DNA of 64,000 nt from Cylindrotheca closterium (Eukaryota > Bacillariophyta > Bacillariophyceae > Bacillariales > Bacillariaceae). This document shows positions 25,889-57,832 of this stretch, in pieces. Location of the stretch: assembly GCA_933822405.4 (NCBI GenBank), contig CAKOGP040002369.1, forward strand, positions 23,303-87,302, in the 5' to 3' direction. How positions within the stretch are numbered: the first letter of the stretch is position 1; the number at the start of each line of letters is the position of its first letter. Position numbers and translations under genes: made by a program. The notes under the pieces are model-generated. The model did not search any database. It was not told the DNA's origin and worked only from the letters and a program-made list of their open reading frames with translations.

Positions 25889-27142
25889 TTAGCTCCGATT
25901 CTCCAAGAGACGTTTCAACAATGACCTATGCGCTTCCGTACGTAGCCTCGTGCCAGCATCTTCGTCACCCAGCGTTCTTCGACGAATTTTGAGAGCTTCT
26001 GCACTCGTGGCTATGGCATCGTCCAGCATTCCCTGGTCAACTTTGACAGCCGAAAGATTCTCGAAGATTGCTGCCTTTTCCTTCAAAATTTCGTTCGCCT
26101 CTTGGAAGAGTTGTTCCGCCTTTTCAGAATCGCCTTCCGTTTGCATTGCCAATCCTTGATTTCTCAGTATTCTCTGATATTTCTCCCGCTGTAACAGTTC
26201 TCGGTTAAGCACAAGCTCTTTTGTGTTGGAATGGTCATCGCCAAGCTCCTTTCGACGAATATTAATGGCTTTCGCATACGACTCGATGGCACCTTCTATG
26301 ATGTCTTGTCGGATATATACTAGTGCGAGTTCTTCATAGGTTTCGGCTGTTTTGGGGTGCATTTCACCCACCGTTTCAATTCGAATCATTAGCACTTTGT
26401 TCCACGTCTCTGTGGCACCTTCGAGGTTGCCCTGTTGATTCTGTATTTTTGCTTTATGGCGGAATATTGAGCCCAATACCTTCATGTCGAAGTCTCCCAC
26501 CCGTTGTAAGCGACTGGAAATTTCGATGGATTTATCAAGCAACTGAACAGCATCGTCCAACCTATTTTGAAGTTTCAGTAGCATTGCAATGCCTTGATAT
26601 AAGTGTGCAACGCTGGGGTGAAACTCTCCATGAATTTGTAGTATCGCCGCAAGTTGGACTTTGTATACCTTGATTGCTTCTGAAAACTTGCCTTGGTTAC
26701 TCAATGAGAGCGCTTCACGTTCGTAAAGTCCCGTCACTTCAATATGATCATTTGGAAGAATTTCGCGCTTGATATCTAGAGCTTCGCGGAACATTTCTTT
26801 GGCTTGTTCATGTTCGCCTTGTCTCTGAAAGGTAATGCCAATTTCCTCGTAGGAATCGGCAGTATCACAATGTCTTCCCAATTTTTTCACACGTATCGCA
26901 AGTGATCTGTTGAGTTTCTCAAAGGCTTCATTGAAATCTCCTTCCTCCCTTAGAATGGACCCAATGTACATCAGTGTCTTAGCCACAGCAATATCATCTT
27001 CACCTAGGTCTTCCGTTTGTATCTCCAACACTGTCTCCAAAGTCTCTCTTGCTTTTCGAGAGTTTCCTTCTTCAAACTGATAGATATGGCACTTGTTCAT
27101 AAGCTCCTGGATTACCGAGTCTTGACATTTTCCCTCCATCAT
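25889..27142 (-). CDS. Kinesin-light-chain-like TPR protein, copy 2
   Basis: 417 residues, the same repeat order and length as copy 1, with recognisable equivalents throughout (KLGRHCDTADSYEEIG, EMFREALDIKREILPNDH, AILQIHGEFHPSV, TVGEMHPKTAETYEELA). The C-terminal 13 residues are the same as in copy 1. It is a tandem duplicate that has diverged moderately. The adjacent start choices are Met1 or Met2 (MMEGK). It is probably a cytosolic scaffold; no partner can be named. Confidence 0.85.
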   Translation of the reverse strand: MMEGKCQDSVIQELMNKCHIYQFEEGNSRKARETLETVLEIQTEDLGEDDIAVAKTLMYIGSILREEGDFNEAFEKLNRSLAIRVKKLGRHCDTADSYEEIGITFQRQGEHEQAKEMFREALDIKREILPNDHIEVTGLYEREALSLSNQGKFSEAIKVYKVQLAAILQIHGEFHPSVAHLYQGIAMLLKLQNRLDDAVQLLDKSIEISSRLQRVGDFDMKVLGSIFRHKAKIQNQQGNLEGATETWNKVLMIRIETVGEMHPKTAETYEELALVYIRQDIIEGAIESYAKAINIRRKELGDDHSNTKELVLNRELLQREKYQRILRNQGLAMQTEGDSEKAEQLFQEANEILKEKAAIFENLSAVKVDQGMLDDAIATSAEALKIRRRTLGDEDAGTRLRTEAHRSLLKRLLENRS

Positions 27143-40783: not shown

Positions 40784-43765
40784 TCATGGGTCTTTCTTCA
40801 TCATAAGCTGCTCTATCTCGGATGCTTGGCGAGCCTTGATTTCTTGCAATGCTCCGACCCTTCTTTTCAATTGGGCGAGCTCCGTGTCCTTTTCGAGGAT
40901 TTGGCTATCCTTTTCCTGCAGCTCATTATTCATTTGGAGGAGATGCTCGCGTAGTTCTTCATCTCCGGCAACACCCGCTTCGGGGTCGAATCTGCGCGAA
41001 TTTGCCGGCAGTGGGTCAGTACTGCTAGGTTCAGCACCAGCACCAGCATCCTTGACCCACAAGCCTACGGACGACTTTGGATGCATGGGAGTCAGTCCGC
41101 CGTGTTCTTGTTTGCGTTCGCTGCCATCCAGAGATTCATCGTCTGAATTGTTCTCATAGATAACAGGTGGTTTCCATGGTATGGACGGCATCTCATCTGC
41201 CATGGTTGTAGATTCCGTGTGGTTCAACGAGTATTGAAACGACGATGAGAGGCTTGGCTTCTGAGCGGTCGGTGAATTCACTCTAGCCTGCTGGTGAATT
41301 TGGCTGGTAGCAGCCGAGTAGTTGGCACGGCCTCGGTTTTGTTGCTGTTGGATGGTTTCCGATGGCATTACCATTTTTGGGACAAGGTAGATCATGAGGG
41401 CAACAATAATGTCCAAACTCAGCAAGTAGCTGGTAGCTATGGAACTCGTGTAAGCATCGTCGTCAAAGACCAGCGAGACAATAACCCGGAGCGCCAAAAA
41501 GATAAAGTGGGAGTAAATCATCATCCCCAAACTCTTGGATTCATTGAACTCGGCCTGAACATTCCTCGACTGGAATGCCAACACTGAGCACCACAAAATG
41601 AGAATACTCTCCCAAATTAGATAGATGATATTCCAATATGGGGAACTGGAACGACAGCCAAAGTGGGACGTAACAGTGGTTCGGTCATCTTCTAGTTTTC
41701 GAACTTCTGTAGCTTTGGAGGGATCTACTGCCGTCCACACGATCAAGTACAACGCCACAATCCCAGACAATACCAGCAGACTTGTATACAGCTGCTGTCT
41801 ATTGATTTGCACTCGACGCATCTTCTTCGAAGCCTTCATTAAATGGTTCAAGGCAGTCACTTTGATAATCAGTGGTACCAGCTCAAAAGTGTATCCCAGG
41901 CTCACCAGCCATACTCTCGTCATGCAGATGGTGTCGTCTGGCTCGATCCCATTCATAATGGCTCCAATCGCCACAAGAAATAGACCGAAGAGCATGACAA
42001 AGATGAACCGCACCTGAGAATACACAAAGACAGCTGCTTTGCGTTTCTTGAAGGAGACAGCTGAGCAAACAACGATATAGGCAAGGGTTATGAACCCAAG
42101 AATATATGCTGCAATCGTGACAGTCTGTGCGTAGTCTTCGCGAGAGCGAAAGACTTTGGGGTGATTCGGCGGCATTAAACTCTTGAGGTAGTCGGTATTG
42201 TTGGCCACCCAACTACAGACAGCCTCTCGTGCTGCATATCCATTTCTTCCATTGGCCACAAAGTGCCCCAACATTTCGTTGATTTCCAACTGATCCATGT
42301 TAAAATTCTGAATAAAGCTGTATGCTGGACTTTGGTCCACCAATGCGGCCTCCAATGTACTGTCTCGTAAGGATCTGGCAATGACCTTTTTTGTAACATG
42401 AGCCCCATTGTCACAGGATCCAACCTCGGTTCCTCGCCTCACCATAGGATCCGCACTGCATCTGTCGGCGACACTCAATCGCTCTTCCTTGCACTGCAGT
42501 GAAGCGGGAGGTAGATAGATTCTGGTAAATTCAAAATCGGTATTCCGGAATACTTCCACAACGGCATCCGGCTCAAACCAATGCATGATTACGTGCGATT
42601 TGGTGGCATTGGCGGCATTCCAAATTTGAATCATTTCCCCATAGCCGTATCCCCCATTGACATGATTGGGTCCACTCGACTTGAGTGCCATCTTCAACCA
42701 AAAGGCCTGTCCTTCCAAAAAGGTACTCCAGTCGCAGGGTGGTGCCACGGCATGACCTGTGCAGGTATCGTTCTGTGCGCCAGTGCATATGTTCTCAGCC
42801 GTGGCTCGAAAATGACCAATGTATCCTTCCCTTGAAAAGTATTTTCCCATGTCGGCTTCATTTGGATATCGATCCGCGATACCGTCCGGAACAGTGCAAT
42901 TGTTCAACGAAACCTCATGGCAGTAATCAGCCCAAGTGGTGGGTCGTTTGAAGATTTCGGCCAACAGTTGTCGGTTTTGCGATAGTCCGTGATAGGTGAC
43001 CGCAAAGGGATATTGTTGGGCTGTAAATTTTGGCAAAAACAAAGAATCCTTTCCAATTTGACCATTGCCATCCAAATAATCCAATTGTCCATCTTCGTAC
43101 TCCTTGTTCAGAATGTCTGCCTGACTGACCCAGGCATCCGGCAGGACATGAACACAATCTTCCTCGGTCTGCAGACAATCTCCATTCAATTCATTAGCCT
43201 TTCGCAATCCATCCCAGGAATATCCGACCGGAGAATACAACAACTTATTGTCAATGTTGTAAAAACTAGCGTCCTTGGTATCGCTCCCCAATCCAACCTT
43301 GACAGGGACATCCAATAATTCCATGAGGCTAATCTGCAAAATCCAGCTAAAGAATATGGCCACTTCCCAATTCTGATAATGCACTCTGACTTCTGGATAA
43401 TTCAACTGAGATGTCCGGCAATTGATGTCTTCAGCGGTAGTATCATCATCAGAATTGCACAGCCGAGTTTGTGGTGGTTCGTGATCATCGTTTTCCAACA
43501 CCATCATTCGTTTCAGACATCCTTCGGTGAATGGATTGCTGCACATGCCGGAAGGGAGGCACGTCGAGCCAGAGCGATAGAGGGCTTCACAATCACGATC
43601 CGATAGACAATTCGACTGTGCAGTTGCTACTGGGATCGCAGTGAGGATTTGCATCACTGCCACCACCATGAGGATGCATTTGTAGATGAATCCTTTACCA
43701 CGATGAGGAGGGATCATGGTGACCCTGCTTCGTCTCATCGCCCTCCAGGAGATGTCTTTGATCAA
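40784..43765 (-). CDS. Class C GPCR with OpuAC/ProX-like ectodomain, copy 1
   Basis: 993 residues; the likelier start is Met17 (43717), directly before a signal peptide. Order: Cys-rich module (about 52-84, CLSDRDC to MCSNPFTEGCL); OpuAC-like ectodomain (about 120-530) with VRVHYQNWEVAIFFSWIL, DAWVSQ, LPKFTA, MIQIWNAANATKSHV and the C-terminal NMDQLEINEMLGHF and AAREAVCSWVANN. The 7TM domain follows (about 545-800), with class C marks: TM3 Cys plus WLVSLGYTFE-x-PLIIK, the loop 2 Cys, and AFQSRNVQAEFNESKSLGMM. The tail is Ser/Pro-rich with a coiled coil (about 930-990). N-glycosylation sites (NCT, NDT) support an extracellular ectodomain. It is probably a G-protein-coupled chemoreceptor. Confidence 0.85.
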   Translation of the reverse strand: MIKDISWRAMRRSRVTMIPPHRGKGFIYKCILMVVAVMQILTAIPVATAQSNCLSDRDCEALYRSGSTCLPSGMCSNPFTEGCLKRMMVLENDDHEPPQTRLCNSDDDTTAEDINCRTSQLNYPEVRVHYQNWEVAIFFSWILQISLMELLDVPVKVGLGSDTKDASFYNIDNKLLYSPVGYSWDGLRKANELNGDCLQTEEDCVHVLPDAWVSQADILNKEYEDGQLDYLDGNGQIGKDSLFLPKFTAQQYPFAVTYHGLSQNRQLLAEIFKRPTTWADYCHEVSLNNCTVPDGIADRYPNEADMGKYFSREGYIGHFRATAENICTGAQNDTCTGHAVAPPCDWSTFLEGQAFWLKMALKSSGPNHVNGGYGYGEMIQIWNAANATKSHVIMHWFEPDAVVEVFRNTDFEFTRIYLPPASLQCKEERLSVADRCSADPMVRRGTEVGSCDNGAHVTKKVIARSLRDSTLEAALVDQSPAYSFIQNFNMDQLEINEMLGHFVANGRNGYAAREAVCSWVANNTDYLKSLMPPNHPKVFRSREDYAQTVTIAAYILGFITLAYIVVCSAVSFKKRKAAVFVYSQVRFIFVMLFGLFLVAIGAIMNGIEPDDTICMTRVWLVSLGYTFELVPLIIKVTALNHLMKASKKMRRVQINRQQLYTSLLVLSGIVALYLIVWTAVDPSKATEVRKLEDDRTTVTSHFGCRSSSPYWNIIYLIWESILILWCSVLAFQSRNVQAEFNESKSLGMMIYSHFIFLALRVIVSLVFDDDAYTSSIATSYLLSLDIIVALMIYLVPKMVMPSETIQQQQNRGRANYSAATSQIHQQARVNSPTAQKPSLSSSFQYSLNHTESTTMADEMPSIPWKPPVIYENNSDDESLDGSERKQEHGGLTPMHPKSSVGLWVKDAGAGAEPSSTDPLPANSRRFDPEAGVAGDEELREHLLQMNNELQEKDSQILEKDTELAQLKRRVGALQEIKARQASEIEQLMMKKDP

Positions 43766-44630
43766 TGTACAGTACTGTATTTGGCTTGTACTTCAATCTA
43801 TACTGGTTCCGAAAGTTCAAAGTTACGTTACAGGGTGCTGCTTTTTCTTTGGTATTGGTGAAACACGGCTTCCGCAGTATTCTCTTGTTTGTGGTGAAGG
43901 TTGGGTCTTTTCCTACTCCAATAGCAAGGGCGAAGAACTCGGCGATAGCGCAATATCATATTTTATATAATGCAATTGTAGAATTCAAAAAACCTGCATA
44001 TTCCACGAGCTTCTAAGAACAGAGCATGACCGTAAGTGCCGAGACCATTTGGACCTTCTGTGGTCTTTCAACAAACTATATATATTATATGTAAAATATC
44101 CCTAATAAGTGTGGCGAATTCATAATCCTTTTCTGTTTACACTTCATTTTTAATGATCACAGGAGGTCGTTTCTGTCGTAAGTATGTTTATTTTATACCG
44201 AGTTATTGTACCGAGTTCGAAACTAAAGACTAACCTAGTTGCATTTCTTTTCAAGAAAAATGCGAAATTCAAAATATCATCACACCAGAAACTAGAGAGG
44301 CGACACGTTGCTTCAAAGAAAGGACAAGTCTCTGCCTTTGTTTCGGTCATTCACCACTCTTCCATTGTTATCGGCATCATCCTTTCAGCTTAGATTCAGT
44401 CCAACCGCAAAATTAGCCAACTTGTCCACACGACCATACGTTTCAGAATAGCATCCTCTTCTGCCAATCATCTTGGTGCACAACGAATCGCTCAGGTTCA
44501 CAAATTACTCAACGGTTTGGAGACTGGTGATCCCAATTCGTTTGAAGATGACATTCATCCAGACCGATATATTCAACAAAATCCTCAAACTGACAAGCAA
44601 GTGATTAATGTCTTAATGTTGCTTGTTGCT
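43766..44630. other. Receptor 1-2 spacer
   Basis: 865 bp containing the copy 1 promoter. From about 44420 to 44600 the plus strand has a coding-like stretch (described separately). No other gene is seen. Confidence 0.4.
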
Positions 44631-44640
44631 TCATGTATTC
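44420..44640 (+). pseudogene. Possible SnoaL/NTF2-like fragment
   Basis: Plus-strand translation contains IAQVHKLLNGLETGDP, then IHPDRYIQQNPQTDK, a pattern like SnoaL-like polyketide cyclase family N-termini (a gap, then YIQHNP). It lacks the rest of the domain and is overlapped by the 3' end of receptor copy 2. This is a weak call; a chance match is possible. Confidence 0.25.
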
Positions 44641-47552
44641 ATAACAGACAGCCTTTGTATTTCTTCTTCTTGAGCCGTTTGAGTGTCCTGCAAGAACAGT
44701 ATCATTTGTTGAAGATCTTCGTTCTCTTCGTCTTTTCGAACCAATGATTTCTTTAGTTGCCAAATTTGTTGCTTGAGCGCAGCCATTGCTTGACCATTGT
44801 CTGTTGCTGGTGTGGGCTTGTGATTGTTGACCTGCTGCTTGCGTTGTTGGGTGGCAACAATCGGAGAGCCACCATTAGATGTATTCAAAGACTCAGTGCT
44901 GCCACCAGTCGCCCAGTGACTCACGGAAGATCTCGGGTGCATTTGATTCAAGGCAGCCTGTTTTCCATGGAGACCATTGCCGCCCGATGGAGACTTTGGG
45001 TTTGCCTTACTTTCTTCCCCGCCAGCAGCATGTGATTCTGTCTCCTCTGCTCCAGACAACATTGAAATGCGATCCATTCCCGAGAAAGAAGACATAGAAG
45101 CAGTTGCCCCAGAAGTGAATCTTTGAGGCTTCTCGGTGATCGGTACTAGAGGCATATTTGTGCCAACAACAGCTTGAAAAGAACCGCTGAAGGAAAGGCG
45201 CGAGCGGCTTCCAAGCTCTTGTATGGAGCAGCCACTTGACACCATCTTTGGTACAAGATATATCGTAATGGCTGCGATGATATCGACACTCAGTAGAACA
45301 CTGGTGGCGAGTGATCTTGTGTGGTCCTCACCTTCAAACACGACGGATACCATCACGCGAATCATCAAAAAGACAAAGTGCGAGTAGCTCATCATTCCCA
45401 GGCTCGTGGATTCGTTGAATTCACCTTCGATGTGGCGAGTCTGAAATGCGACAGCCGATGCCCACAAAACCAGCATACCCTCCCACACAATGTATGCAGT
45501 ATGCCAGTATTGAGACTCGGAACGACAGCCAAAATGTGACGTGACAGTAATCGAATCCGGTTCTTGCGTCCAGATTTCGGTAGACTTGGGAGGGTCCACC
45601 GCCATCCAGATGATCAAGTAGAATCCAAGAAGCAAAGACAGTATCATCACACTCGTGTACAGTTGACTGGGATTGATTTTCACCCGACGCCTTTGTTGCG
45701 ACGCCTTCATTGAGCCATTCAATGCCGTTACCTTGACAATCAGCGCCACCAACTGGAAGGTGTACCCCAAGCTGACTAGCCCTATTCGCGAACAGCATAT
45801 CACGTCGTCTGGTTCCATTCCATGCAAGATCGCTCCTACTGCAACCAGCAATAAGCCAAAGAGTATCACGAAAACAAACTGAGCTTGTGCATACACAAAC
45901 ACGGCTGTTTTCCGTTTTCGGAAGGTGATCGTAGTGGAAAGGAGTATGTACACCAGGGCGACGAAGCCTAAAGAATAAGCAAGAATCGTCGCAATCTCTT
46001 CATGCTCATCACGAGACTGAAAAACCTTTGGGTGATTCGGCGGCATCAGACGTTGGAGGTATTCGGTGTTGTTTGCTATCCAGGTACAAACTGCTTCTCG
46101 TGCAGCATACCCTGTTCTGCCCCCGGCCCCGTAGTGGCTCAGCATTTCGTTGATGTGTAGTTGATCAATATTGAAATTTTGAATGAAGGAATATGCTGGA
46201 CTTTGTTCAGCGGGAGGCAATGCCAGTGTGGAGTCCCTAAGTGATATCGCAATTGCCTTCTTTGTAATATGAGCTGAGTTGTCGCATGCGCCCGCCATCG
46301 TTCCTCGTCGGACAACTGGATCCTCGCTGCATCTTTCTTCAGTCGTCGGCCGAGCTGCTTCGCACTGAAGAGATGGAGTTGGTAAGTAAACCTTTGTAAA
46401 TTCTGCGCCCGTATTGCGATAGACTTCGACCACTGTGTCAGGTTCAGCCCATTGCATCATCACATCTGACTGTGTAGCATTGGCTGCATTCCATATCTGA
46501 ATCATTTCAGAATACGTGTAGCCCCCATTCACATAGCTTGGTCCGCTTGATTTGAGGGCAAGATCGAGCCAGTAAGTCTGTGTCTCGATGAAGGTGCTCC
46601 AGGTACACGGTGGAGCCACTACGTGGCCAGTGCAAGTATTGTTGTTGACTACACCAGTACAGTTATTTTCAGCAGTGGCTCGAAAATGTCCAATGTATCC
46701 GCTAGCAAAGTATTTACCCGCATCGTCTTGGTTTGGATACATCTCCGCTACACCGTCCGGAACAGTACAGTTGTTTGGCGAAACCTCATTGCAGTAATCT
46801 CCCCACGCTGTCGGCCGCTTGAATATTTCAGCAACCCGATGATGGTTTTGTGATAATCCCAAGTGGGTGACAGTGAAGGGATATCGCACTGCAGTATATT
46901 TCGGAACCCACCACGATAGTTTCTCAACTTGTCCATTGCCATCAGAATTGTCCAACTGGCCATCGGCGTATTCCTTCGCCATGACATCAACCTGAGACGC
47001 CCAGACATCAGTGATAAGATTGACACAGTCCTCGTCAGTGAGGAGACAATTTCCACCGAGTTCATTTGCCTTTCGAATGCCGTCCCAAGAATAGCTTGTG
47101 GACGAAAATGGCAGATTATTTTCAATATGGTAAAAACTTGATTCTTGTGTGTCCCTCCCTACTCCAATTGTGACAGGAACATCCAGAAACTCCATCAGAG
47201 ATATCTGTATGATCCAACTAAAGAATATAGCAGCTTCCCAATCCTGGTTGTGAATTCGGATCTCTGGGTAGTTCAAAGGTGACGTTCGGCAATTGCGCTC
47301 TTCAGCAGTATCATCATCTGAATTGCACAACCGTATTCGTTGGTCTTCCGATTGTGGCTTCATACTTTTTAAGCATCCGTCAATGAATGGGTTACTGCAT
47401 TGTCCAGAGGCAAGACAAGTCGAGCCTTGTCGATAAAGGGCAGCACAATCAATATCTGAAACACATTCTCTTTGGGCATTCGCCTTGTGTGACAGGAAGT
47501 GTATTATCATGAAGATGAGAAATGGTGGAATTATACAACGATTTGGATTCAT
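44631..47552 (-). CDS. Class C GPCR with OpuAC/ProX-like ectodomain, copy 2
   Basis: 973 residues with the same order as copy 1. The signal peptide (FLIFMIIHFLSHKANAQ) is followed by CVSDIDC to GQCSNPFIDGCL. The OpuAC-like ectodomain has the best family match here: IRIHNQDWEAAIFFSWII, ITDVWASQ, WWVPKYTA (bacterial consensus VPKYVA), MIQIWNAANATQSDVMMQW and NIDQLHINEMLSHY. The 7TM region keeps the TM3 Cys with LVSLGYTFQLVALIVK, the loop 2 Cys (HFGCRSESQYW) and AFQTRHIEGEFNESTSLGMM. A coiled coil (ALKQQIWQLKKSLVRKDEE) ends the protein. It is a tandem paralogue 865 bp from copy 1, with its own promoter region. Confidence 0.85.
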   Translation of the reverse strand: MNPNRCIIPPFLIFMIIHFLSHKANAQRECVSDIDCAALYRQGSTCLASGQCSNPFIDGCLKSMKPQSEDQRIRLCNSDDDTAEERNCRTSPLNYPEIRIHNQDWEAAIFFSWIIQISLMEFLDVPVTIGVGRDTQESSFYHIENNLPFSSTSYSWDGIRKANELGGNCLLTDEDCVNLITDVWASQVDVMAKEYADGQLDNSDGNGQVEKLSWWVPKYTAVRYPFTVTHLGLSQNHHRVAEIFKRPTAWGDYCNEVSPNNCTVPDGVAEMYPNQDDAGKYFASGYIGHFRATAENNCTGVVNNNTCTGHVVAPPCTWSTFIETQTYWLDLALKSSGPSYVNGGYTYSEMIQIWNAANATQSDVMMQWAEPDTVVEVYRNTGAEFTKVYLPTPSLQCEAARPTTEERCSEDPVVRRGTMAGACDNSAHITKKAIAISLRDSTLALPPAEQSPAYSFIQNFNIDQLHINEMLSHYGAGGRTGYAAREAVCTWIANNTEYLQRLMPPNHPKVFQSRDEHEEIATILAYSLGFVALVYILLSTTITFRKRKTAVFVYAQAQFVFVILFGLLLVAVGAILHGMEPDDVICCSRIGLVSLGYTFQLVALIVKVTALNGSMKASQQRRRVKINPSQLYTSVMILSLLLGFYLIIWMAVDPPKSTEIWTQEPDSITVTSHFGCRSESQYWHTAYIVWEGMLVLWASAVAFQTRHIEGEFNESTSLGMMSYSHFVFLMIRVMVSVVFEGEDHTRSLATSVLLSVDIIAAITIYLVPKMVSSGCSIQELGSRSRLSFSGSFQAVVGTNMPLVPITEKPQRFTSGATASMSSFSGMDRISMLSGAEETESHAAGGEESKANPKSPSGGNGLHGKQAALNQMHPRSSVSHWATGGSTESLNTSNGGSPIVATQQRKQQVNNHKPTPATDNGQAMAALKQQIWQLKKSLVRKDEENEDLQQMILFLQDTQTAQEEEIQRLSVMNT

Positions 47553-48060
47553 CGTTGTTCTTGAGTCCTCGTTTTTGGTCCCTTGTTCACAGCAAATGAA
47601 AGCGATGTCCCTTCAATTCACGTCTTTCCCTTGCTGCTATTGGCACGGGTGCTTGTTCTGATAGTCACAAGAAACAACTACCGCTACGATTATTAATACT
47701 ATCTGGTCACTTCAAAGTTCAAAAATCGAGAGGTTCGACACCAGTACGATACTTGTATATCGAGTACCGGTAGGTTCTTTTCTTCCGCGAGCATAACACA
47801 CCCAATCAATATTAGAAACCTAATGGTCGCATTTTCGAGATTATGACCGTAATAAGGCCAGACGCGATTTGATTTAGCGCACAGTCACATTTCCATATCG
47901 ACATGTGACATTCCCTCGATCATTTTCCCGTTTGATCCACCGCATGATCATTTGACTTCCGGTAGTCTACTGCTTCTTTGATCTTTCCAATAGTACTAGA
48001 GGACGACAGCCTGAAATTTATGAAATTTCAATAACAATACATATCATAAACTGTTTATTA
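47553..48060. other. Receptor 2-3 spacer
   Basis: 508 bp, with TACCGGTA at 47765-47772, 213 bp upstream of the copy 2 ATG. No gene is seen. Confidence 0.4.
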
Positions 48061-50958
48061 TCATTGACCTTCCATCGTTTCACTATTGTCAGGGTTTTCA
48101 AGCTTGTCTTCGCCCCCAACGGCTTCCACTAGCCTTTCACTATTGTTAGGCTTTTCAAGCTTGTCGTTGCCCCCAACGGCTTCGACAAGCTTCCCAATCT
48201 TCGACTCTTGTCGGTCTCGAGTCTTTTGTACTTTATCAAGGGCCTCTTTCAGTTCTTTGAGCTCTTTGTCCTTCATGACAAGCTTCTCCTTCAGCTCTTC
48301 ATTGTCAACGTCAGTTTTGAATGTCACTCTCCGTGGTCCAATTGGCACAGATTTGGAAATTGCCCTTGGCGCATCGCGGGCCTTGGTCCAATACGGACTC
48401 GTATCATTCGCATGGTTGCCTTCGTCGGAATCTCCCTTCGAAGAGGACGTCGATTTTTCAAAGTCATCGTCATCTGATTGTTCTTCGATACCTGACATCT
48501 TTTCTATACCTGACATTGAAGATCGGCTCCTCTTGGCTTCTTGTTCCAAATCTCTAGTCGCACTAGATAGGTGTGTACTGGTTCGTCGCCTCTGCACTTC
48601 TCGGATCGTATCAGGCGGCATTACCATCTTTGGTAGTAGATAGATAGTAACTGCTATGGTGAGGTCCAAACTCAAGAGATAGCTGTGGGCCAGTGAATTT
48701 GTGTAGACGTCGTTTTCGAATATCACAGACACAATGATTCGTAGTATGGTAAAAACAAAGTGAGAGTAAACCATCATTCCCAAACTCTTGGACTCGTTGA
48801 ACTCTTGCTTTGCATTGCGTGATTGAAAGGCCAGCGCAGAACACCACAAAATTAGAACACCTTCCCACAAAGTATAGGCTGTCCCCCAATACTCAGACTC
48901 GGAACGACAACCCCAGTGTGAGGAAATAGTAATCGAATCCTCTTCCAATCTTCGAACTTCTGTAGCCTTTGCCGGGTCTACGACAGTCCATACTAGCAAA
49001 TAAATCGCCACAATTCCAGATAAGACAAGAACAGTGGAATAGAGGTGCATCATATTGATGTTCACTCTGCGCATTCTCCGTGATGCGCTCATCAAACGAT
49101 TCAGAGCCGTCACTTTGATAATCAAAGGTACGAGCTCAAAGGTGTAACCCAAGCTCACGAGCCACACTCGCGCCATGCAAATTGTATCATTCGGTTCGAT
49201 TGCATGCAAGATGGAGCCAATGGCTACCAAGGTGAGTCCAAAGAGGACCACGAAAATGAATTGGACTTGTGAGTATACAAATACTGCAGCCTTTCGTTTC
49301 TTGACCGTGATTGCCGTCGAAATCAAAATGTACACCAACGCAAGTGTCGCCACAATGTATGCCACCACAGACACCGTCTCACTGTAATCATCCCTAGACT
49401 GAAAGGCTCTTGGGTGATTGGGCGGAATGAAACTCTCGAGATAGTCGGTATTGTTGGCAATCCATCCACAAACCGCTTCTCTGGCGGCATATCCAGTTCC
49501 ACCATGGTTCACAAAATGCTGCAAAATGGTCGAGACCTCCAACTCGTCAATGGCAAAATTTCGAATAAAGCTGTAGGCTGGACTTTCGTCTTCTGGGGAT
49601 TGCTCCAATGTAGAGTCTCTCAGGGAAATAGCAATTGCCTTTTTGGTCACGTGCGGTTGGTTATCGCACGAGCCTTCTTTCGGTCCCAACCTCTTGATGG
49701 GGTTCGCGTCGCATTTGTCTTCTGGGAGCGCCCTTGCTTCCAAGCACTGAATCGATGGACTTGGCAAATGGACCTTAGTAAAGGCAGCATCCGTATTTCG
49801 AAACATTTCCAAAATAGAATCTGGTTCGTACCACCACATAATCACATCGGATTTTGTGGCATTGGCGGCATTCCAGATTTGGATCATTTCGGAATAGGTA
49901 TAGGCACGATTAACCAAGTTCCCACTGGACATCAATGCAATGTTGTTCCAATACGCCTGTGATTCTACAAAGGTACTCCAGGTGCAAGGTGCCCCAGTAA
50001 TGTGACCGGTGCAGGTGTTGTTATTGGCTACACAGTCGTTTTCTTCCGTGGCTCGAAAGTGCCCAATATATCCGCTAGCAAAGTACTTTGACATGTCTTC
50101 TTCCGCAGGATAAAATGCAGCGAATTCATCGGGTGTGGTGCAGTTGTTGAGGGAAACTTCATGGCAGTAGTCCGCCCAAGTGGTGGGTCTTTTGAACACC
50201 TCTGCTAATCGATGGCGATCTTGTGACAACCCCATGTGAGTGATAGCGAATGGATGTCGAGCCGCCGTAAAGTTGGGAATCCACCAACCAACCTTTCCAA
50301 CCTGTCCATTCCCACCCAAATAATCCAACTGACCGTTGTCGTATTCTTCTTGATATTTTTTCTGTTGGCCCAACCAGACATCAGGAATGACATGGGCACA
50401 ATCTTCATCCGTCAATAAACAGTTGCCTCCCAATTCGTTTGCCTTTTGTAGAGCATCCCAAGCGTAACTCGTTTTGGAATACGGAACATCATTTTCAATA
50501 TGATAAAAGCTGGACTTTATTGTATCATCCCCCAATCCCACAGTGACAGGCACGTCCAACAATTCCATGAGGCTCACTTGAAGGATCCAGCTGAAGAATA
50601 TTGCCACAACCCAGTCCTGATTGTGGACTCGGATCTCTGGATAATTAAAGGGTGAAAGTCGGCAATGGCTTGCATCTGCGTCGTCCGAGTTGCAGTGTCG
50701 TTTCTGATGATTTTTTGCCGAGTTCATTTTTTTCAGACATCCATCCATAAAGGGATTGCTGCACTGACCAGTGAGCAAACAGGTCGATCCTTCGCCATAG
50801 AATTCTATACATTCAGTGTCAGTCCAGCATTCTGCGGGTACTGCGGTCACCACACACGGTAATATTCCAAGCAGCAGTGTGATTGATTTTACTATTGACA
50901 TTTTCATTGACCTTGACCTTGACCTTATTGCTGGTGTTCTAGAATGTCCACGCGTCAT
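48061..50958 (-). CDS. Class C GPCR with OpuAC/ProX-like ectodomain, copy 3
   Basis: 965 residues; Met18 (50907, MKMSIVKSITLLLGILP) is the likelier start, since it begins the signal peptide. The layout matches the other copies: CWTDTEC to GQCSNPFMDGCL, IRVHNQDWVVAIFFSWIL, IPDVWLGQ, WWIPNFTA, MIQIWNAANATKSDVIMWWYEPD, AIDELEVSTILQHF and ARVWLVSLGYTFELVPLIIK. The tail has a coiled coil (LKEKLVMKDKELKELKEAL) followed by two copies of a motif LVEAVGG-x-DKLE-x-P-x-NSE, a very recent internal duplication. The ectodomain has several N-glycosylation sites. Same inferred role as copies 1 and 2. Confidence 0.85.
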   Translation of the reverse strand: MTRGHSRTPAIRSRSRSMKMSIVKSITLLLGILPCVVTAVPAECWTDTECIEFYGEGSTCLLTGQCSNPFMDGCLKKMNSAKNHQKRHCNSDDADASHCRLSPFNYPEIRVHNQDWVVAIFFSWILQVSLMELLDVPVTVGLGDDTIKSSFYHIENDVPYSKTSYAWDALQKANELGGNCLLTDEDCAHVIPDVWLGQQKKYQEEYDNGQLDYLGGNGQVGKVGWWIPNFTAARHPFAITHMGLSQDRHRLAEVFKRPTTWADYCHEVSLNNCTTPDEFAAFYPAEEDMSKYFASGYIGHFRATEENDCVANNNTCTGHITGAPCTWSTFVESQAYWNNIALMSSGNLVNRAYTYSEMIQIWNAANATKSDVIMWWYEPDSILEMFRNTDAAFTKVHLPSPSIQCLEARALPEDKCDANPIKRLGPKEGSCDNQPHVTKKAIAISLRDSTLEQSPEDESPAYSFIRNFAIDELEVSTILQHFVNHGGTGYAAREAVCGWIANNTDYLESFIPPNHPRAFQSRDDYSETVSVVAYIVATLALVYILISTAITVKKRKAAVFVYSQVQFIFVVLFGLTLVAIGSILHAIEPNDTICMARVWLVSLGYTFELVPLIIKVTALNRLMSASRRMRRVNINMMHLYSTVLVLSGIVAIYLLVWTVVDPAKATEVRRLEEDSITISSHWGCRSESEYWGTAYTLWEGVLILWCSALAFQSRNAKQEFNESKSLGMMVYSHFVFTILRIIVSVIFENDVYTNSLAHSYLLSLDLTIAVTIYLLPKMVMPPDTIREVQRRRTSTHLSSATRDLEQEAKRSRSSMSGIEKMSGIEEQSDDDDFEKSTSSSKGDSDEGNHANDTSPYWTKARDAPRAISKSVPIGPRRVTFKTDVDNEELKEKLVMKDKELKELKEALDKVQKTRDRQESKIGKLVEAVGGNDKLEKPNNSERLVEAVGGEDKLENPDNSETMEGQ

Positions 50959-52099
50959 GTTGAAAATGCTGAGGATGCTGAGGATGGATATTGGAGTTAT
51001 TCGTTACTCTGGTTATGATTTTGTTTGTTACCACTGACCACGGGTATGGTGGTACCTTGTAATGTGTGAGTGCTTACCGGCGGTACAGCAGGGATCCGAA
51101 CAAAGCAACAATGGAGCCGAAAGCCTTACACTTAAATAAAATAAACCCAGTTCGTTTACTTACTGGTTCATTCCGGGACCTCGCACCCAAAAGGAAAGCG
51201 AAACTTATTGTTCCTTGTACTCGTACATCTGTACCACGTACCGGTACCGGACCAAAACGAACCACCAAATGTAATCAATAATCGAAACAATTAAGCAATT
51301 CGATGTGACATGTGAGACAAAAGCGCTCCAGTCATTCGTCGTTCTTTTCTGCATTTAAAACAAAAAGCCTTTTGTCTTCTGTTGCTCCACCACCAATGTA
51401 AGACTATTTACGATCAAATACTGTAAGTTCTCGAAACAGCATACTCACGCCATGCCACACGCAATACCATGATTTCATCAAACAGTACTACCGGTACCGG
51501 TACACGTACCTGTACCTGTTTTATCGCACCGGTACGAGTACCGGCGCTGGTACCAGTACCTGGTACGAGTACGGTATCCAGCATTCAGCATTGCCCGAAT
51601 TCTCCTCTTTCTTCCTTTCATTCCAAAGAATTCCTCTTCCCAGGACACATCTGTGCTGTTATGTTCTTTTTCATCGCTTGGCAGCACTTCATCAATAGAC
51701 TACAATCATACAAAGCCATAGGACTACAATGCTCATTTTATAAAATAATATAGAATCGTAATAAAAGTTAGAGTCTTTGTTCTCCATCACCAGAGCTGGT
51801 AATTCTTGTATGAGGCCATGACCTCATTGCATTTTCGGACGGTCGTCCGGTTCGTCGTTTGTCGTTTCACCAATTGACTGCCATTTCTACCGGTAACATT
51901 CCACTTGACATTCCAATACTACTTCTGGTTCTGGCGGCAGACTTGTCTACGAGCTTGTCTACGAGCTTGTCTTCACCAAACAACCAAATCAGTGTGATTG
52001 GTTGCTCTGGTAATATAATAATGCCCAAGGCGGATGGTTTCTCCAAAACCGAGCCATCCATGTCATGCATGGCTCCTCCTCTTTCGCCTGTCTTCACTA
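50959..52099. other. Receptor 3-4 spacer with CCGGTAC-rich tract
   Basis: 1141 bp without a supported gene. A tract at 51210-51570 is dense in GGTAC/ACCGG words, with TACCGGTA at 51239, 51489 and 51495; another copy is at 51888. A CGAGCTTGTCTA direct repeat lies near 51949-51972. Confidence 0.5.
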
Positions 52100-54886
52100 C
52101 TATGAGGATTCATCATTGCTCGTTGCTTCGTCCAAGTGACCCGATCGCGAGGATTCCTCGATTCCACTCAGAGGCCGATCCATGGAATGTTGTCGGACAG
52201 TATCAATTTCGGAAGTGGTCTTGAAACTGACCCGTCTTATGTATTTACTTTGGTCACTGGTACCAAAGGATCCCGACATTTCCTCATCGGTACTTTCGGG
52301 TATGCTATCAAAGCTCTTTCGCTTGTTTTGTTGATCATCAAAGTAGGAAAAGGTCGAGTGCGACTTAGGCAGTTGCTTGGATGGAAGAAAAGCCTTGGAG
52401 ACACTTGAATTGTTGGAGTTGGGGTTGGACTTGTTGGTGAGATTGAGGCCAGTCACAGAGGTGGTGGATCCCTCTCTTCGGAAAGATGAGGCTGTGATTT
52501 GGAATCTTGTGTTCTCATTACTAGCAGGTTTGTGTAACTGCTTGTGTCCCTTCACCCACTTGGGAAGGAGATAGATGGTCAAGGCGGAAATAACATCCAA
52601 ACTGAGCAACAAACTAGTCGCCACAGCATTGGTATTGGGTTCTTCATCAAATGTCAGGTAGACAATGACTCGAAGGGCCGCAAAGACAAAGTGGGAGTAA
52701 ATCATGGTTCCAACCGCTCGTGATTCGTTGAATTCAGCCTTGACTCCTCTCGATTGAAAGGCAAGTACAAAGGCCCAGAGAATTAAAAATCCCTCCCAAA
52801 AGTGATAGCCCGTTACCCAAAACGTATCCTCGGAAGAACAAGTAGCTTGAGCCGAAACGGTCCTGCCATCGTCGACCAAAATGCGAAACATTTCTGGTCT
52901 GGGAGGATCCATAAAGGTCCATACCAACAAAAAGATGGTCACAAAGGATGCCAAGGCAGCTACTTGCAAGTACAAGGTTCGTGGCTTGATGCGCACCCGT
53001 CGCATTCTTCTAGAAGCTCTCATCAATTGATTAATCGCCGAAACCTTGATGATCAAGGGTCCCAACAAACAAGTGTACCCCAGATTGACAAACCAAACTT
53101 GCGCAAGGCAAGTGGTATTGTCGGGTGTGAGGGCGGCATGCATGATGGAGCTCAAGGCCACGAGAAGCAGCCCAAAGAGCATGATAAAGACGAATTGGAC
53201 TTGGGCAAAGACCATGATGCGGGCTTTGCGGTAATGGTAAGTGACCAAAAAGGAGATCAAGACATAGATTGCGGCAAAGATCCCTACTCCTTGCGCCACA
53301 GTTTTGAGATTTCGTTGTGTCTCGGATTCATTGCGGAGTGTCCGAGGATATCCCACGGGTTTGAACTTGCCCAAGACGTCCATGTTGTTTTGGACCCACT
53401 CGCAGACGGATTCTCGAGCGGATTGCCCCGTCTTGCCCTTTTTGACATAGTCTCGCAACACCACGGCCAGGTCCAAATCATCAATGTTAAAATTGCGAAT
53501 GGCGTAGTATCCAGGAGATTGGTCCACTTCCGGGGTGGCCCGCGTCGAGTCTCTGAGAGAAGAAGCAATCGCCTTTTTGGTAGTGTGTCCAATATTATCA
53601 CAGGATCCTTCCTTGGAGCCTCTTCGTGTCATCGTATCCGCGCTGCAGCGATCGTCCGGAGTCACCCGGGATTCCCGACATTCGACCGACGGACTGGGCA
53701 AATGGACCTTGGTAAATTCGTAGTCGGTCCCCCGAAAGGCTTCTAGGAGTGGATCTGGTTCGTACCACCACATCATGACGTGCTCGTTGGTAGCATTGGC
53801 GGCATCCCAAACTTGGAGCATCTGACTATAGGTATAGCCCGAGTTGACGGTAGCTGTTCCAGAGGATGCCAAGGGAATGTCATTCCAGTAGGTTTGGGCG
53901 TCCAAAAAGGTACTCCAGGTACAAGGAGCATTGACTATGTGTCCAGTACAAGTGCTGTTGCCAAATTCGTTCAGAATGGTACAGTTGGATTCTTGAGTAT
54001 GCCGAAAGTGACCAATGTAATTGCCATTCGGAGCAAAGTAACTAGCCTTTTCGGAATCGGTGACAGGATACCTTGAGGCAATTCCATCGGGTTGCGAACA
54101 ATTCATTGTCGAAACCTCGTGACAATAATCTTGCCAACTGGTGGGTCGCTTGAAGATGTCTGCCAATTCTTGTCTCCTTCCGTCCATTCCCACATAGGTA
54201 ATGGTAAAGGGATGTTCTTGGGCCGTCTTTTTCGGCACGTACCACGAAATTTTCCCCACCTGTCCATTGCCATCCAAATAATCAATGTCTCCATCATCAA
54301 AATGACCCAAGAGTGTATCCTTTTGTCCCAACCAGACATCTGGAATCACATGGACACAATCTTCTTCTGTCAATGAACAATCTCCTCCGAGCTCATTGGC
54401 TTTGACCAATGCGTCAAAGGAATACGAGCGTCTACTCAATGGTAACCCAGTGTCCGTGCTGTAAAAGCTGGACTGGAATGTATCGTCCCCCAACCCGACG
54501 GATGCAGGAACCTCTAGAAACTCGGTCAAGTAAATTTGCATAATCCATGACAAGAAAATGGCCACTTCCCAATCTTGATTGTGAACGCGGATTTCGGGAT
54601 ATTGGAATTCGGCAATCCGACAGGTTTGTTCCATTCCATTTTTGGTTTCGTGGTTGCCTAACCTCAAATCATCGGCATTGCAGACTCTCATTTTGTGTTT
54701 GTCCGAGTCAAAGCTGTGCAGACATCCCGAGACATATGGATTGCTGCAGACTCCCGCCACGGTGCATTTGGAATTAGGATGATAGATGGCGCTACAATCG
54801 TAATCCGAAATGCATTCAGAAGAGGCTTGCTCAAGGAGTAGAACGAAAAGCAGCAACAGGACAGAAATGGCTTTTTGGAACACCAT
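52100..54886 (-). CDS. Class C GPCR with OpuAC/ProX-like ectodomain, copy 4 (divergent)
   Basis: 928 residues. Signal peptide AISVLLLLFVLLLEQASS, Cys module CISDYDC to GVCSNPYVSGCL, ectodomain IRVHNQDWEVAIFLSWIM, IPDVWLGQ, WYVPKKTA and MLQVWDAANATNEHVMMWWYEPD, then NIDDLDLAVVLRDYV with SARESVCEWVQNN. The 7TM part keeps the TM3 Cys with WFVNLGYTCLLGPLIIK, the loop 2 Cys, and AFQSRGVKAEFNESRAVGTM. It differs in having a Ser/Asn-rich cytoplasmic tail and, unlike the other three, no clear coiled coil. It is the most divergent of the four and may pair with a coiled-coil copy or act alone. Confidence 0.84.
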   Translation of the reverse strand: MVFQKAISVLLLLFVLLLEQASSECISDYDCSAIYHPNSKCTVAGVCSNPYVSGCLHSFDSDKHKMRVCNADDLRLGNHETKNGMEQTCRIAEFQYPEIRVHNQDWEVAIFLSWIMQIYLTEFLEVPASVGLGDDTFQSSFYSTDTGLPLSRRSYSFDALVKANELGGDCSLTEEDCVHVIPDVWLGQKDTLLGHFDDGDIDYLDGNGQVGKISWYVPKKTAQEHPFTITYVGMDGRRQELADIFKRPTSWQDYCHEVSTMNCSQPDGIASRYPVTDSEKASYFAPNGNYIGHFRHTQESNCTILNEFGNSTCTGHIVNAPCTWSTFLDAQTYWNDIPLASSGTATVNSGYTYSQMLQVWDAANATNEHVMMWWYEPDPLLEAFRGTDYEFTKVHLPSPSVECRESRVTPDDRCSADTMTRRGSKEGSCDNIGHTTKKAIASSLRDSTRATPEVDQSPGYYAIRNFNIDDLDLAVVLRDYVKKGKTGQSARESVCEWVQNNMDVLGKFKPVGYPRTLRNESETQRNLKTVAQGVGIFAAIYVLISFLVTYHYRKARIMVFAQVQFVFIMLFGLLLVALSSIMHAALTPDNTTCLAQVWFVNLGYTCLLGPLIIKVSAINQLMRASRRMRRVRIKPRTLYLQVAALASFVTIFLLVWTFMDPPRPEMFRILVDDGRTVSAQATCSSEDTFWVTGYHFWEGFLILWAFVLAFQSRGVKAEFNESRAVGTMIYSHFVFAALRVIVYLTFDEEPNTNAVATSLLLSLDVISALTIYLLPKWVKGHKQLHKPASNENTRFQITASSFRREGSTTSVTGLNLTNKSNPNSNNSSVSKAFLPSKQLPKSHSTFSYFDDQQNKRKSFDSIPESTDEEMSGSFGTSDQSKYIRRVSFKTTSEIDTVRQHSMDRPLSGIEESSRSGHLDEATSNDESS

Positions 54887-55609: not shown

Positions 55610-57832
55610 ATGATAAAAATACCCTCCAAACGAACCAGTAGTAACAAAGCAAAAGATCTCGCGGAAAGCGGAGTAGCCACCGTCTTGTCTGTGGATCAAT
55701 GGAAGGCCACTCCCGATTCCAAATGCGATTGTCCCAAGGATGAAACAGTGAGTGTCAACTTTATTTGCATGCATCCCGATGGTGCTGATGGAGATGATGA
55801 TAGTGATAAGGCACCACCACCTCAAACACCTCAAACCGACACACCTGGCCTGGCCCAAGCTGCCCGTTATCAAGAAATCTTTCTCGACAAGGTTGGCATG
55901 CTGTATGCCGTTCAAGACGCTGCCTCACGTCACGTCTTGGACGATCGGTTTGACAGTTTTTTGAGTGACGGTGAAAAACAACTCAAGGATTCTTTGTTGA
56001 CGTTCCTGAAAAAGGCAAGTCCAAAAGCCAAGGCAACCCATGCCTTTTCGTATTTGGAAAAACTCCTGAAGACCAAAATGGGGTATCAGGACATGATGGG
56101 ACGTGGTGCGACTCGTACGGCCGCCAAGAGACTTTCCTACTTTTGGAAACCAAAAAAGGAATCAACTACAACCCTGCCAACCACGACGACAGAAAAAGCG
56201 ACAACATCAACACCAACATCAACAGCAACATCATCACAACAACCGTCTCGTCCATTGCCCACCACTGCAAACAAGTCAAGCACACCACCATCACAACAGC
56301 AGTCACCTAAGGCACCAAATCCAGGTCACGTCTTTGTGTGCAATTCCTCGGTGTGCGACATTCAGTGCGATGCCTTTTTGTGTCCTGGCCATATATCTCG
56401 CAAGAAGGAAAACATATCGGGAAGCATCTTTCATCAATGGTACAAGGGTTCTCTTGCGGCGGAACTCATGCGAAAGGCAAAAGGCATGGACGAATTTCAA
56501 CAACGACAACAACAAAGACGAGTTGGCACTCATCAGAAACTGCAACAACATCAAGGTTATGATCGAGTCGTGACCATTCAGGAATGGCCACAAGATAGTG
56601 ATGCTTTCGATTTGCCTCTGTTGATTGCTGGAGAAGTATCTTTGGAGTCGCAATTGCATGCCTACAATTTGGCTTGCGATAAAAGTGAACGAGCAACAAA
56701 TACTGAGGACCTACCACCAGATGACTTTCGAGTCGAATTTTTGCTGGAAACAGTCCGCCAATTCCTAGAGTTGGCATCGACTCTCGTTCAACAACAAGGC
56801 ACGAAAAAACCAAATGTCCATCGAGAACGTTATTTGCTGGCGGTTCCCATATTGGGAACGGGTGGAGGCTACGCTGGGGACATGACGGGACAGATTGTGT
56901 ACAAGTTGCTGGAAATGGTCACCAATTTTGTTGCCTCCAGCACTCCTAATATGGATGTGGTGGTGGTCACGGTCGACGATGCCACCTATGCTCACGCCCA
57001 AGTCATTCGAAAGAATCAACTCGGCGAGTCATCCGGAAGGTATCCTTGCTTTGCAGCCTTGTCCAAAAGTCAAAATGACTATGCTGCTCAATTGGCCAGT
57101 TTGGCAGAAGGTCGACATTTGGCACTCTTTGTGGGTGCTGGGGTTAGCATTGGATCTGGTTTGCCCAGCTGGTTTGGTTTACTGAACTTGGTAGAAGATG
57201 CCTTTACTCCCACTGGAAACTCGTCAGAACGAAGCGTGGGAGACGATTGCGACTGGGATCCATTGGCCATGGCCCAAGTATTGAAAGACTGGTGCGACAC
57301 CAAGCCGGATCGGAATGGAGTGCAACAGTCATTGAAGAAACGAGTCTGTCAGTGCTTGCAAGACAATGGCCGCACGCTCGGACTCTTGCTATGTTTGCTC
57401 ATGTCACTCCCCTTTCATTCCATGGTGACTCAAAATTACGATACTCTGATTGAACAAGCCTGTCAAAAGTGGAGTCTTGCCGCAATCAGGCATGGACCAC
57501 TCACTGGAAACACTACGAAACGCAACTTGAGTGTGATTCCCTATCGTCCCCAACGCAAAGCTCACTATTGGCTGTTGAAGATGCACGGATGCGTATCTCG
57601 GCCGGAAGATATTATATTGACCGAAGACGACTATGCTCAGTATTCTACCTCGTCCAAAGCCCGCGCGTTGGATGGGTTGGTCCAAGCGAGTTTACTCACC
57701 AAACACTTCTTGTTTGTGGGCTTTAGCTTGACAGATCCCAACTATTTGCGGATCATAGATCAAGTGAGAGAAGCGCTGTATCGGGATGATCCATCGTACC
57801 ATGACAGTCGCGATGATGATTCTTCACAATGA
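55610..57832 (+). CDS. Macro-like/SIR2-like fusion protein (putative NADase)
   Basis: 740 residues, intronless. After a unique N-terminal region and a Thr/Ser/Gln-rich linker (about 160-235), residues about 239-485 look macro-domain-like: VCNSSVCDIQCDAFLCPG at the start and VPILGTGGGYAGDMTGQ with VVVVTVDDATYAHA near the end. Residues about 503-725 are SIR2-like: LFVGAGVSIGSGLPSW, VTQNYDTLIE (605), MHGCVSRPEDIILTEDDY (657) and FLFVGFSLTDPNY (701). The Asn and His that serve catalysis in SIR2 NADases are present, and the Cys4 zinc module of deacetylase sirtuins is not seen. NAD+ cleavage regulated by a nucleotide-binding macro-like domain is a reasonable inference. Confidence 0.82.
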   Translation: MIKIPSKRTSSNKAKDLAESGVATVLSVDQWKATPDSKCDCPKDETVSVNFICMHPDGADGDDDSDKAPPPQTPQTDTPGLAQAARYQEIFLDKVGMLYAVQDAASRHVLDDRFDSFLSDGEKQLKDSLLTFLKKASPKAKATHAFSYLEKLLKTKMGYQDMMGRGATRTAAKRLSYFWKPKKESTTTLPTTTTEKATTSTPTSTATSSQQPSRPLPTTANKSSTPPSQQQSPKAPNPGHVFVCNSSVCDIQCDAFLCPGHISRKKENISGSIFHQWYKGSLAAELMRKAKGMDEFQQRQQQRRVGTHQKLQQHQGYDRVVTIQEWPQDSDAFDLPLLIAGEVSLESQLHAYNLACDKSERATNTEDLPPDDFRVEFLLETVRQFLELASTLVQQQGTKKPNVHRERYLLAVPILGTGGGYAGDMTGQIVYKLLEMVTNFVASSTPNMDVVVVTVDDATYAHAQVIRKNQLGESSGRYPCFAALSKSQNDYAAQLASLAEGRHLALFVGAGVSIGSGLPSWFGLLNLVEDAFTPTGNSSERSVGDDCDWDPLAMAQVLKDWCDTKPDRNGVQQSLKKRVCQCLQDNGRTLGLLLCLLMSLPFHSMVTQNYDTLIEQACQKWSLAAIRHGPLTGNTTKRNLSVIPYRPQRKAHYWLLKMHGCVSRPEDIILTEDDYAQYSTSSKARALDGLVQASLLTKHFLFVGFSLTDPNYLRIIDQVREALYRDDPSYHDSRDDDSSQ

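Follow-up and report, generated by a model that had tools for sequence, protein, structure and literature searches.

The 64,000-nucleotide stretch of the Cylindrotheca closterium genome analyzed here (contig CAKOGP040002369.1; hereafter the window) carries a tandem set of four minus-strand genes, receptors 1–4, each encoding a class C G protein-coupled receptor (GPCR) with a seven-transmembrane (7TM) domain of GABA-B type (Table 1). The modelled ectodomain of one of them adopts the two-lobed fold of the OpuAC/ProX class of solute-binding proteins, and family alignments place an aromatic cage in it. Taken as a whole, the explanation that we favor, and consider probable, is that these are OpuAC-class receptors for onium osmolytes, i.e. 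a tandem set of diatom class C chemoreceptors and strong candidate osmolyte sensors. An earlier interpretation of the same DNA, in which a class C 7TM is linked to a ligand domain of the OpuAC/ProX class containing an aromatic cage, is thereby partly supported, judging from the model and the alignments.

Each receptor is laid out as a short Cys-rich N-terminal segment, a two-lobed domain of the OpuAC/DmpX/TmoX class, a GABA-B-like 7TM following directly, and a cytoplasmic tail. In the mechanism proposed, a small onium compound (a quaternary ammonium or sulfonium zwitterion such as dimethylsulfoniopropionate (DMSP), glycine betaine or a relative) would be clamped between the lobes by a cage formed, in receptor 3, of W116, W195, W327 and Y377. 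Closure of the lobes would be passed through the short link to the 7TM, which would then signal via a G protein or, in some relatives, a fused effector. Much of the exchange between phytoplankton and bacteria runs on DMSP, betaines and methylated amines, for which bacteria have known binding proteins; should the pocket function as its appearance suggests, osmolyte sensing by diatoms becomes directly testable.

Receptor architecture and ectodomain fold

A class C 7TM (PF00003) was found by Pfam scan at the C-terminal side of all four receptors (E 5.9e-36 to 1.2e-32), and GABA-B receptors were the nearest family profile, as the original prediction had held. All four carry the TM7 (transmembrane helix 7) motif L[VL]PK and the TM3 motif [IV]KV[TS]A[LI]N with its basic Lys; a TM7 PK motif and a basic TM3 residue are given as class C marks in the relevant passages of a 2013 survey (PMC3727952). 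An ectodomain of ligand-domain size (∼410 residues) lies N-terminal to the 7TM, as in class C receptors generally. The same scan yielded no match to ANF_receptor (PF01094) at E≤1 in any of the four, and NCD3G was absent from their Pfam matches. The genome holds one G-alpha match above cut-off (E 2.2e-91), with a single stop within the matched stretch that perhaps marks an intron.

Structure prediction covered one receptor of the four, receptor 3, for which AlphaFold2 returned a mean predicted local distance difference test score (pLDDT) of 94.1 over residues 25–800 and 94.9 over the ectodomain. The fold had been set beforehand as the point on which the original prediction could fail, and structure comparison identified the modelled ectodomain as a two-lobed OpuAC/ProX-class binding protein. 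Among the matches listed, the best were binding proteins for small onium compounds, with DmpX and TmoX tied and ProX close behind; sensors of the same fold for nicotine, acetylcholine, cytisine and serotonin, going by structure titles, were also among them. None of the matches listed was a type I flytrap, which is compatible with lower-ranked ones. If the model holds for the set, receptors 1–4 would be class C GPCRs whose head has a different binding-protein fold from the type I flytrap that is usual in this class. The receptor 3 ectodomain also contains a large Cys-rich insert N-terminal of W327.

Sequence profiles pointed the same way. A profile of 13 ectodomain cores, run against 177,635 PDB sequences (E≤10), had DmpX as its sole match (E 0.0016; 0.14 for the best single stretch). 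DmpX and 28 relatives taken from genomes were then used for profile comparison: when 119 ectodomain rows (107 kept) were compared by HHalign with 28 of the 29 DmpX-group sequences, the probability was 97.1 over 259 columns, with an E-value of 6.7e-11 that, like all HHalign E-values here, refers to a one-to-one comparison rather than a database search. Controls (five column-shuffled profiles, a reversed profile, the 7TM and the N-terminal segment) gave 0.1–0.9. Compared with single sequences, the ectodomain profile reached 94.2 for DmpX and 83.4 for TmoX. Twenty bacterial loci were drawn from a TmoX search of nine bacterial genomes, the open frame being picked by blastp against TmoX; 16 scored 74.9–96.2 (e.g. 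L047 86.7, L048 92.0, L051 94.7, L062 90.6), one 61.3 (L063) and three 0.3–2.0. Because of the PDB-profile match and the HHalign values, high for DmpX and TmoX and negligible for E. coli ProX, the ectodomain appears by sequence to lean to the marine DmpX/TmoX side of the OpuAC/ProX class.

Database annotation was less direct. The original prediction had the ectodomain matching OpuAC (PF04069) along its length in all four proteins; the fold is upheld by the receptor 3 model and the profile comparison, but the Pfam match is not. PF04069 was above cut-off in none of the four receptors and had no match across the genome, and an assignment to OpuAC straight from Pfam was rejected on these grounds; receptor 4 (P0004) alone had it at E≤1 (E 0.23, 11.5 bits against a cut-off of 21.2). 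The family passed cut-off in relatives P0025, P0158 and P0192, each scanned singly, and when 56 family members were scanned, the four receptors among them, 12 matched OpuAC at E≤0.1. Searching 5.8 billion proteins with a profile limited to the ectodomain gave 101 proteins at E≤10; no bacterium was present among those bearing organism names (a minority of rows), and the link to bacteria therefore rests on the structure and profile comparisons.

The segment ahead of the binding domain (residues 42–100 of receptor 3 and their equivalents) is conserved and Cys-rich (CSNPF-x2-GCL ... CNSDD). Weak Pfam resemblances at E≤0.1 among the 56 members, to EB in three and to Nodulin_late in five, are candidate matches to this segment, recorded without positions.

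Aromatic cage and candidate ligands

The pocket passages of the DmpX report (PMC10030565) describe a cage of Trp35, Trp84, Trp152 and Trp202 around the sulfonium of DMSP, with Thr64 and Ala153 on the carboxylate, Glu113 acting via water and Tyr200 on the sulfur; mutation of Tyr200 abolished DMSP binding. The corresponding passages on TmoX (PMC8918994) list Trp55, Trp102, Trp177 and Trp222 with Glu131, Phe106 and Phe220, Glu131 binding the N-oxide of trimethylamine N-oxide (TMAO). In sequence alignments, W116, W195, W327 and Y377 of receptor 3 fall on the four cage Trp of these proteins. W152 and P204 of DmpX are separated by 52 residues, as are W327 and P379 of receptor 3, and the profile alignment pairs them accordingly.

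The aligned cage positions are aromatic at four of four in receptors 1, 3 and 4 and at three of four in receptor 2, so that retention of the cage, raised in advance as a check, holds fully for three proteins and in part for the last. Across 120 family rows, the positions are aromatic in 96/96, 106/110, 117/119 and 113/120 of the rows with a residue there; 86 of the 95 rows complete at all four are aromatic throughout, the remaining nine having three, and three of the cage Trp are nearly invariant. The chance of four aromatic columns was estimated at 1.8e-5 (406 columns, 28 aromatic) or 1.7e-4 (163 conserved columns, 20 aromatic), figures that are too optimistic because the alignments themselves favor pairing aromatic residues. 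The list of invariant Trp in the original prediction needs revision: all four receptors do keep the Trp of NQDW and VW, but WWVP reads LFLP in receptor 1, WWIP in receptor 3 and WYVP in receptor 4, and MWWYEPD reads HWFEPD in receptor 1 and QWAEPD in receptor 2, its second Trp alone being invariant. Missing from that list is the third cage Trp (receptor 3 residue 327, motif PC-x-W), which is invariant in all four.

Several observations weigh against osmolyte receptors of this class. E. coli ProX, as a single sequence, had no profile relation to the ectodomain (HHalign probability 0.1), nor had 3 of the 20 bacterial relatives (L064, 0.3; L065, 1.0; L059, 2.0). The cage was placed by sequence alignment rather than by superposed coordinates, and one HHalign alignment sets W261 (RPTTW) in place of W327 at DmpX W152; W261 is itself Trp in 116/119 rows, so a Trp occupies the DmpX W152 position on either alignment. 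The fourth cage position is Ala in receptor 2 and Asn in the relative P0021. Around the cage, the DmpX Tyr200 position is H, Q, W and W in receptors 1–4 (Tyr in 7/120 family rows), and no confident counterpart of the carboxylate-binding Thr64 was mapped. The position of DmpX Glu113 and TmoX Glu131 (residue 223 of receptor 3) is D, L, V and I in receptors 1–4, hence acidic in receptor 1 only, and mixed across the family (commonest Q 18, I 17, E 17, L 16, V 10, D 7, N 7). Lastly, divergence of the paralogues at the pocket lies only weakly above background: compared with all 410 ectodomain columns, P was 0.07, 0.03, 0.04 and 0.43 (four overlapping tests, uncorrected).

Since neither Tyr200 nor Glu131 is kept, a DMSP-specific assignment of DmpX type and a TMAO-specific assignment of TmoX type were both rejected. 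Betaine, DMSP or another osmolyte is nevertheless a plausible predicted ligand. It is possible, although we think it unlikely, that fold and aromatic pocket were kept and re-purposed for another ligand class, such as an amine, a cyclic dipeptide or another pheromone-like signal. The altered second-shell residues, the insert before W327 and the same-fold sensors listed above are all in keeping with this, as is the involvement of guanylate cyclases in diatom sex pheromone responses, indicated in part of the literature, with relatives of the receptors carrying guanylate cyclase (see below). The small-onium binding proteins at the top of the structure matches listed, and cage Trp that are almost invariant at three positions, argue instead for an onium ligand.

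Paralogues, fused effectors and the genes of the window

The paralogues keep three cage Trp and differ around the fourth position. W-W-Y at 375–377 (receptor 3 numbering, as below) occurs in receptors 3 and 4 and in grouped relatives (P0006; P0019, P0023), H-W-F with Asp at 223 in receptor 1, P0012, P0014 and P0016, Q-W-A in receptor 2 and P0009, and Q-W-N in P0021. Of the 120 sequences, 110 were placed in a tree, where each receptor clusters with its own partners from other sources; the four-way split is therefore probably older than the species. These pocket codes are only suggestive of different ligands, given the weak background test above.

Alternatively, the ectodomain could be a structural or dimerisation module from which small-molecule binding has been lost in some members, likeliest in receptor 2, a reading that we regard as improbable. 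One GABA-B subunit functions without small-molecule binding, and the substitutions at the fourth cage position (shared by receptor 2 with P0009, and seen as Asn in P0021) would fit such a loss; yet receptor 2 retains Trp at the remaining three cage positions, and most of its pocket residues recur in its two closest relatives instead of drifting.

Relatives bearing organism names are all from diatoms (Cylindrotheca, Nitzschia, Seminavis, Amphora, Epithemia, Odontella, Thalassiosira and Bacillariaceae), a listing that covers the named rows and is not proof of restriction to diatoms. In P0056, P0071 and P0099, ectodomain and 7TM are followed in one chain by a guanylate cyclase and a cyclic-nucleotide phosphodiesterase, natural receptor–cyclase–phosphodiesterase fusions that would bear both the maker and the breaker of their messenger; P0071 is probably a gene of this same genome (G000:C403:253144-255627). 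The precomputed Pfam sets of P0085, P0108 and P0110 are identical to those of the three fusions. An inositol-phosphatase-like Exo_endo_phos2 domain and C2 follow the receptor unit in P0047 and in a locus of the same genome, L006:1375-5430 (G000:C179), on scanning (in L006 the sequence stretch ends within the gene and C2 is just under cut-off), and also in P0049 and P0068 according to precomputed Pfam. That the ectodomain captures osmolytes for scavenging or transport, with a 7TM that does not signal, is very improbable: the nearest relatives of the ectodomain are transporter subunits, but its fusion partner is a class C 7TM that has both the TM3 Lys and the TM7 PK motif, not ATP-binding cassette (ABC) components, and cyclase and phosphatase effectors are present in relatives.

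A wider proposition, on which we are close to evenly divided with a slight lean to doubt, is that diatoms possess a whole GPCR family for onium osmolytes (DMSP, betaines and relatives) on a DmpX/TmoX-type domain, tandem-duplicated, with paralogue-specific pocket codes and with some members hard-wired in one chain either to guanylate cyclase and phosphodiesterase together or to an effector resembling inositol phosphatases. If true, through these receptors a dominant group of phytoplankton would detect the organosulfur and methylated-amine signals coming from its neighbours.

Many further class C 7TMs in the genome match the query in the 7TM alone, and their ectodomains may be of different kinds. 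One ENA-sourced sequence, P0160, joins a piece of the receptor ectodomain to a PrmA-type methyltransferase and may be a gene-model artefact.

Table 1. Receptor genes and their domains in the window; each gene is an uninterrupted open reading frame (ORF).
Feature	Position	Strand	Details
Receptor 1 (P0001, 984 aa), class C GPCR	40784-43738	-	PF00003 E 5.9e-36; OpuAC-class ectodomain, 7TM and C-terminal tail
Receptor 1 ectodomain, residues 113-525	42164..43402	-	alignment mapped onto coordinates; cage W124, W203, W337, F388; pocket D231, H386
Receptor 1 7TM, residues 536-788	41375..42133	-	Pfam 7tm_3
Receptor 2 (P0002, 973 aa), class C GPCR	44631-47552	-	PF00003 E 1.2e-32
Receptor 2 ectodomain, residues 94-506	46035..47273	-	cage W105, W184, W318; fourth position A369; Q367
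Receptor 2 7TM, residues 522-769	45246..45989	-	Pfam 7tm_3
Receptor 3 (P0003, 965 aa), class C GPCR, modelled protein	48061-50958	-	PF00003 E 2.3e-35
Receptor 3 ectodomain, residues 105-514	49417..50646	-	cage W116, W195, W327, Y377; W375
Receptor 3 7TM, residues 524-777	48628..49389	-	
Receptor 4 (P0004, 928 aa), class C GPCR	52100-54886	-	PF00003 E 2.1e-34
Receptor 4 ectodomain, residues 95-512	53351..54604	-	cage W106, W185, W324, Y375; W373
Receptor 4 7TM, residues 533-776	52559..53290	-	Pfam 7tm_3

Elsewhere in the window, two neighbouring TPR-repeat genes of similar length (23882-25159 and 25889-27142, minus strand) are apparently another tandem pair. A 740-aa protein encoded at 55610-57832 on the plus strand has a C-terminal SIR2-like domain (PF13289, E 2.8e-24). 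Also on the plus strand, the ORF at 14511-16214 contains a chromodomain and the start of SNF2, and the next long ORF (17194-20685) Helicase_C; the two are probably one remodeller gene with introns.

Comparison with known systems

Diatom class C receptors have been described before. The parts of Port 2013 (PMC3727952) bearing on them place diatom class C GPCRs basal to GABA-B, with N-termini that are PBP1 or sugar-transporter-like; the present four are likewise class C, but the N-termini described there are of other kinds. A conventional type I Venus flytrap, making the four ordinary receptors of GABA-B/glutamate type, would be suggested by their GABA-B-like 7TM and the PBP1-type N-termini of that survey; the receptor 3 model seems to contradict this reading, which can be given hardly any weight. 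Port 2013 was not among the open-access papers naming both 'OpuAC' and 'diatom'. No report of these diatom receptors was found in the open-access literature searched, outside which subscription papers mostly lie, and searches of the same literature aimed at receptors turned up no paper on a eukaryotic receptor for DMSP, betaines or methylated amines.

The bacterial proteins that the ectodomain resembles are known otherwise as ABC importer subunits, whereas the diatom domain is fused to a 7TM. DmpX, the DMSP-binding protein of Roseovarius nubinhibens (PDB 7YLE), has 17% identity to the diatom ectodomain; it is a transporter subunit whose Tyr200 and Glu113 are not conserved in the receptors, which have a Cys-rich insert and a 7TM. 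Compared with TmoX, the TMAO-binding protein of Ruegeria pomeroyi (PDB 4XZ6), three receptors have V, L or I for Glu131 and receptor 1 has D. The ProX/OpuAC glycine betaine-binding proteins (PDB 1R9L, 3L6H) share the fold of the modelled ectodomain, although E. coli ProX is unrelated to it by sequence profile.

A precedent in domain composition is fungal. Krishnan 2012 (PMC3251606) reported OpuAC together with 7tm_3 in six Allomyces macrogynus proteins, all putative class C receptors, and the domain passages of that paper also describe other non-flytrap binding domains in fungal receptors. The pairing of OpuAC with a class C 7TM is thus already in print and is not new. The likeness is one of domain names: the fungal assignments came from Pfam and were checked by RPS-BLAST at E 0.1, in a domain section without structure or pocket analysis. 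What appears to be new here, on the evidence of the alignments, is the occurrence in diatoms of class C GPCRs with an OpuAC-class head and a predicted pocket resembling those of DmpX and TmoX.
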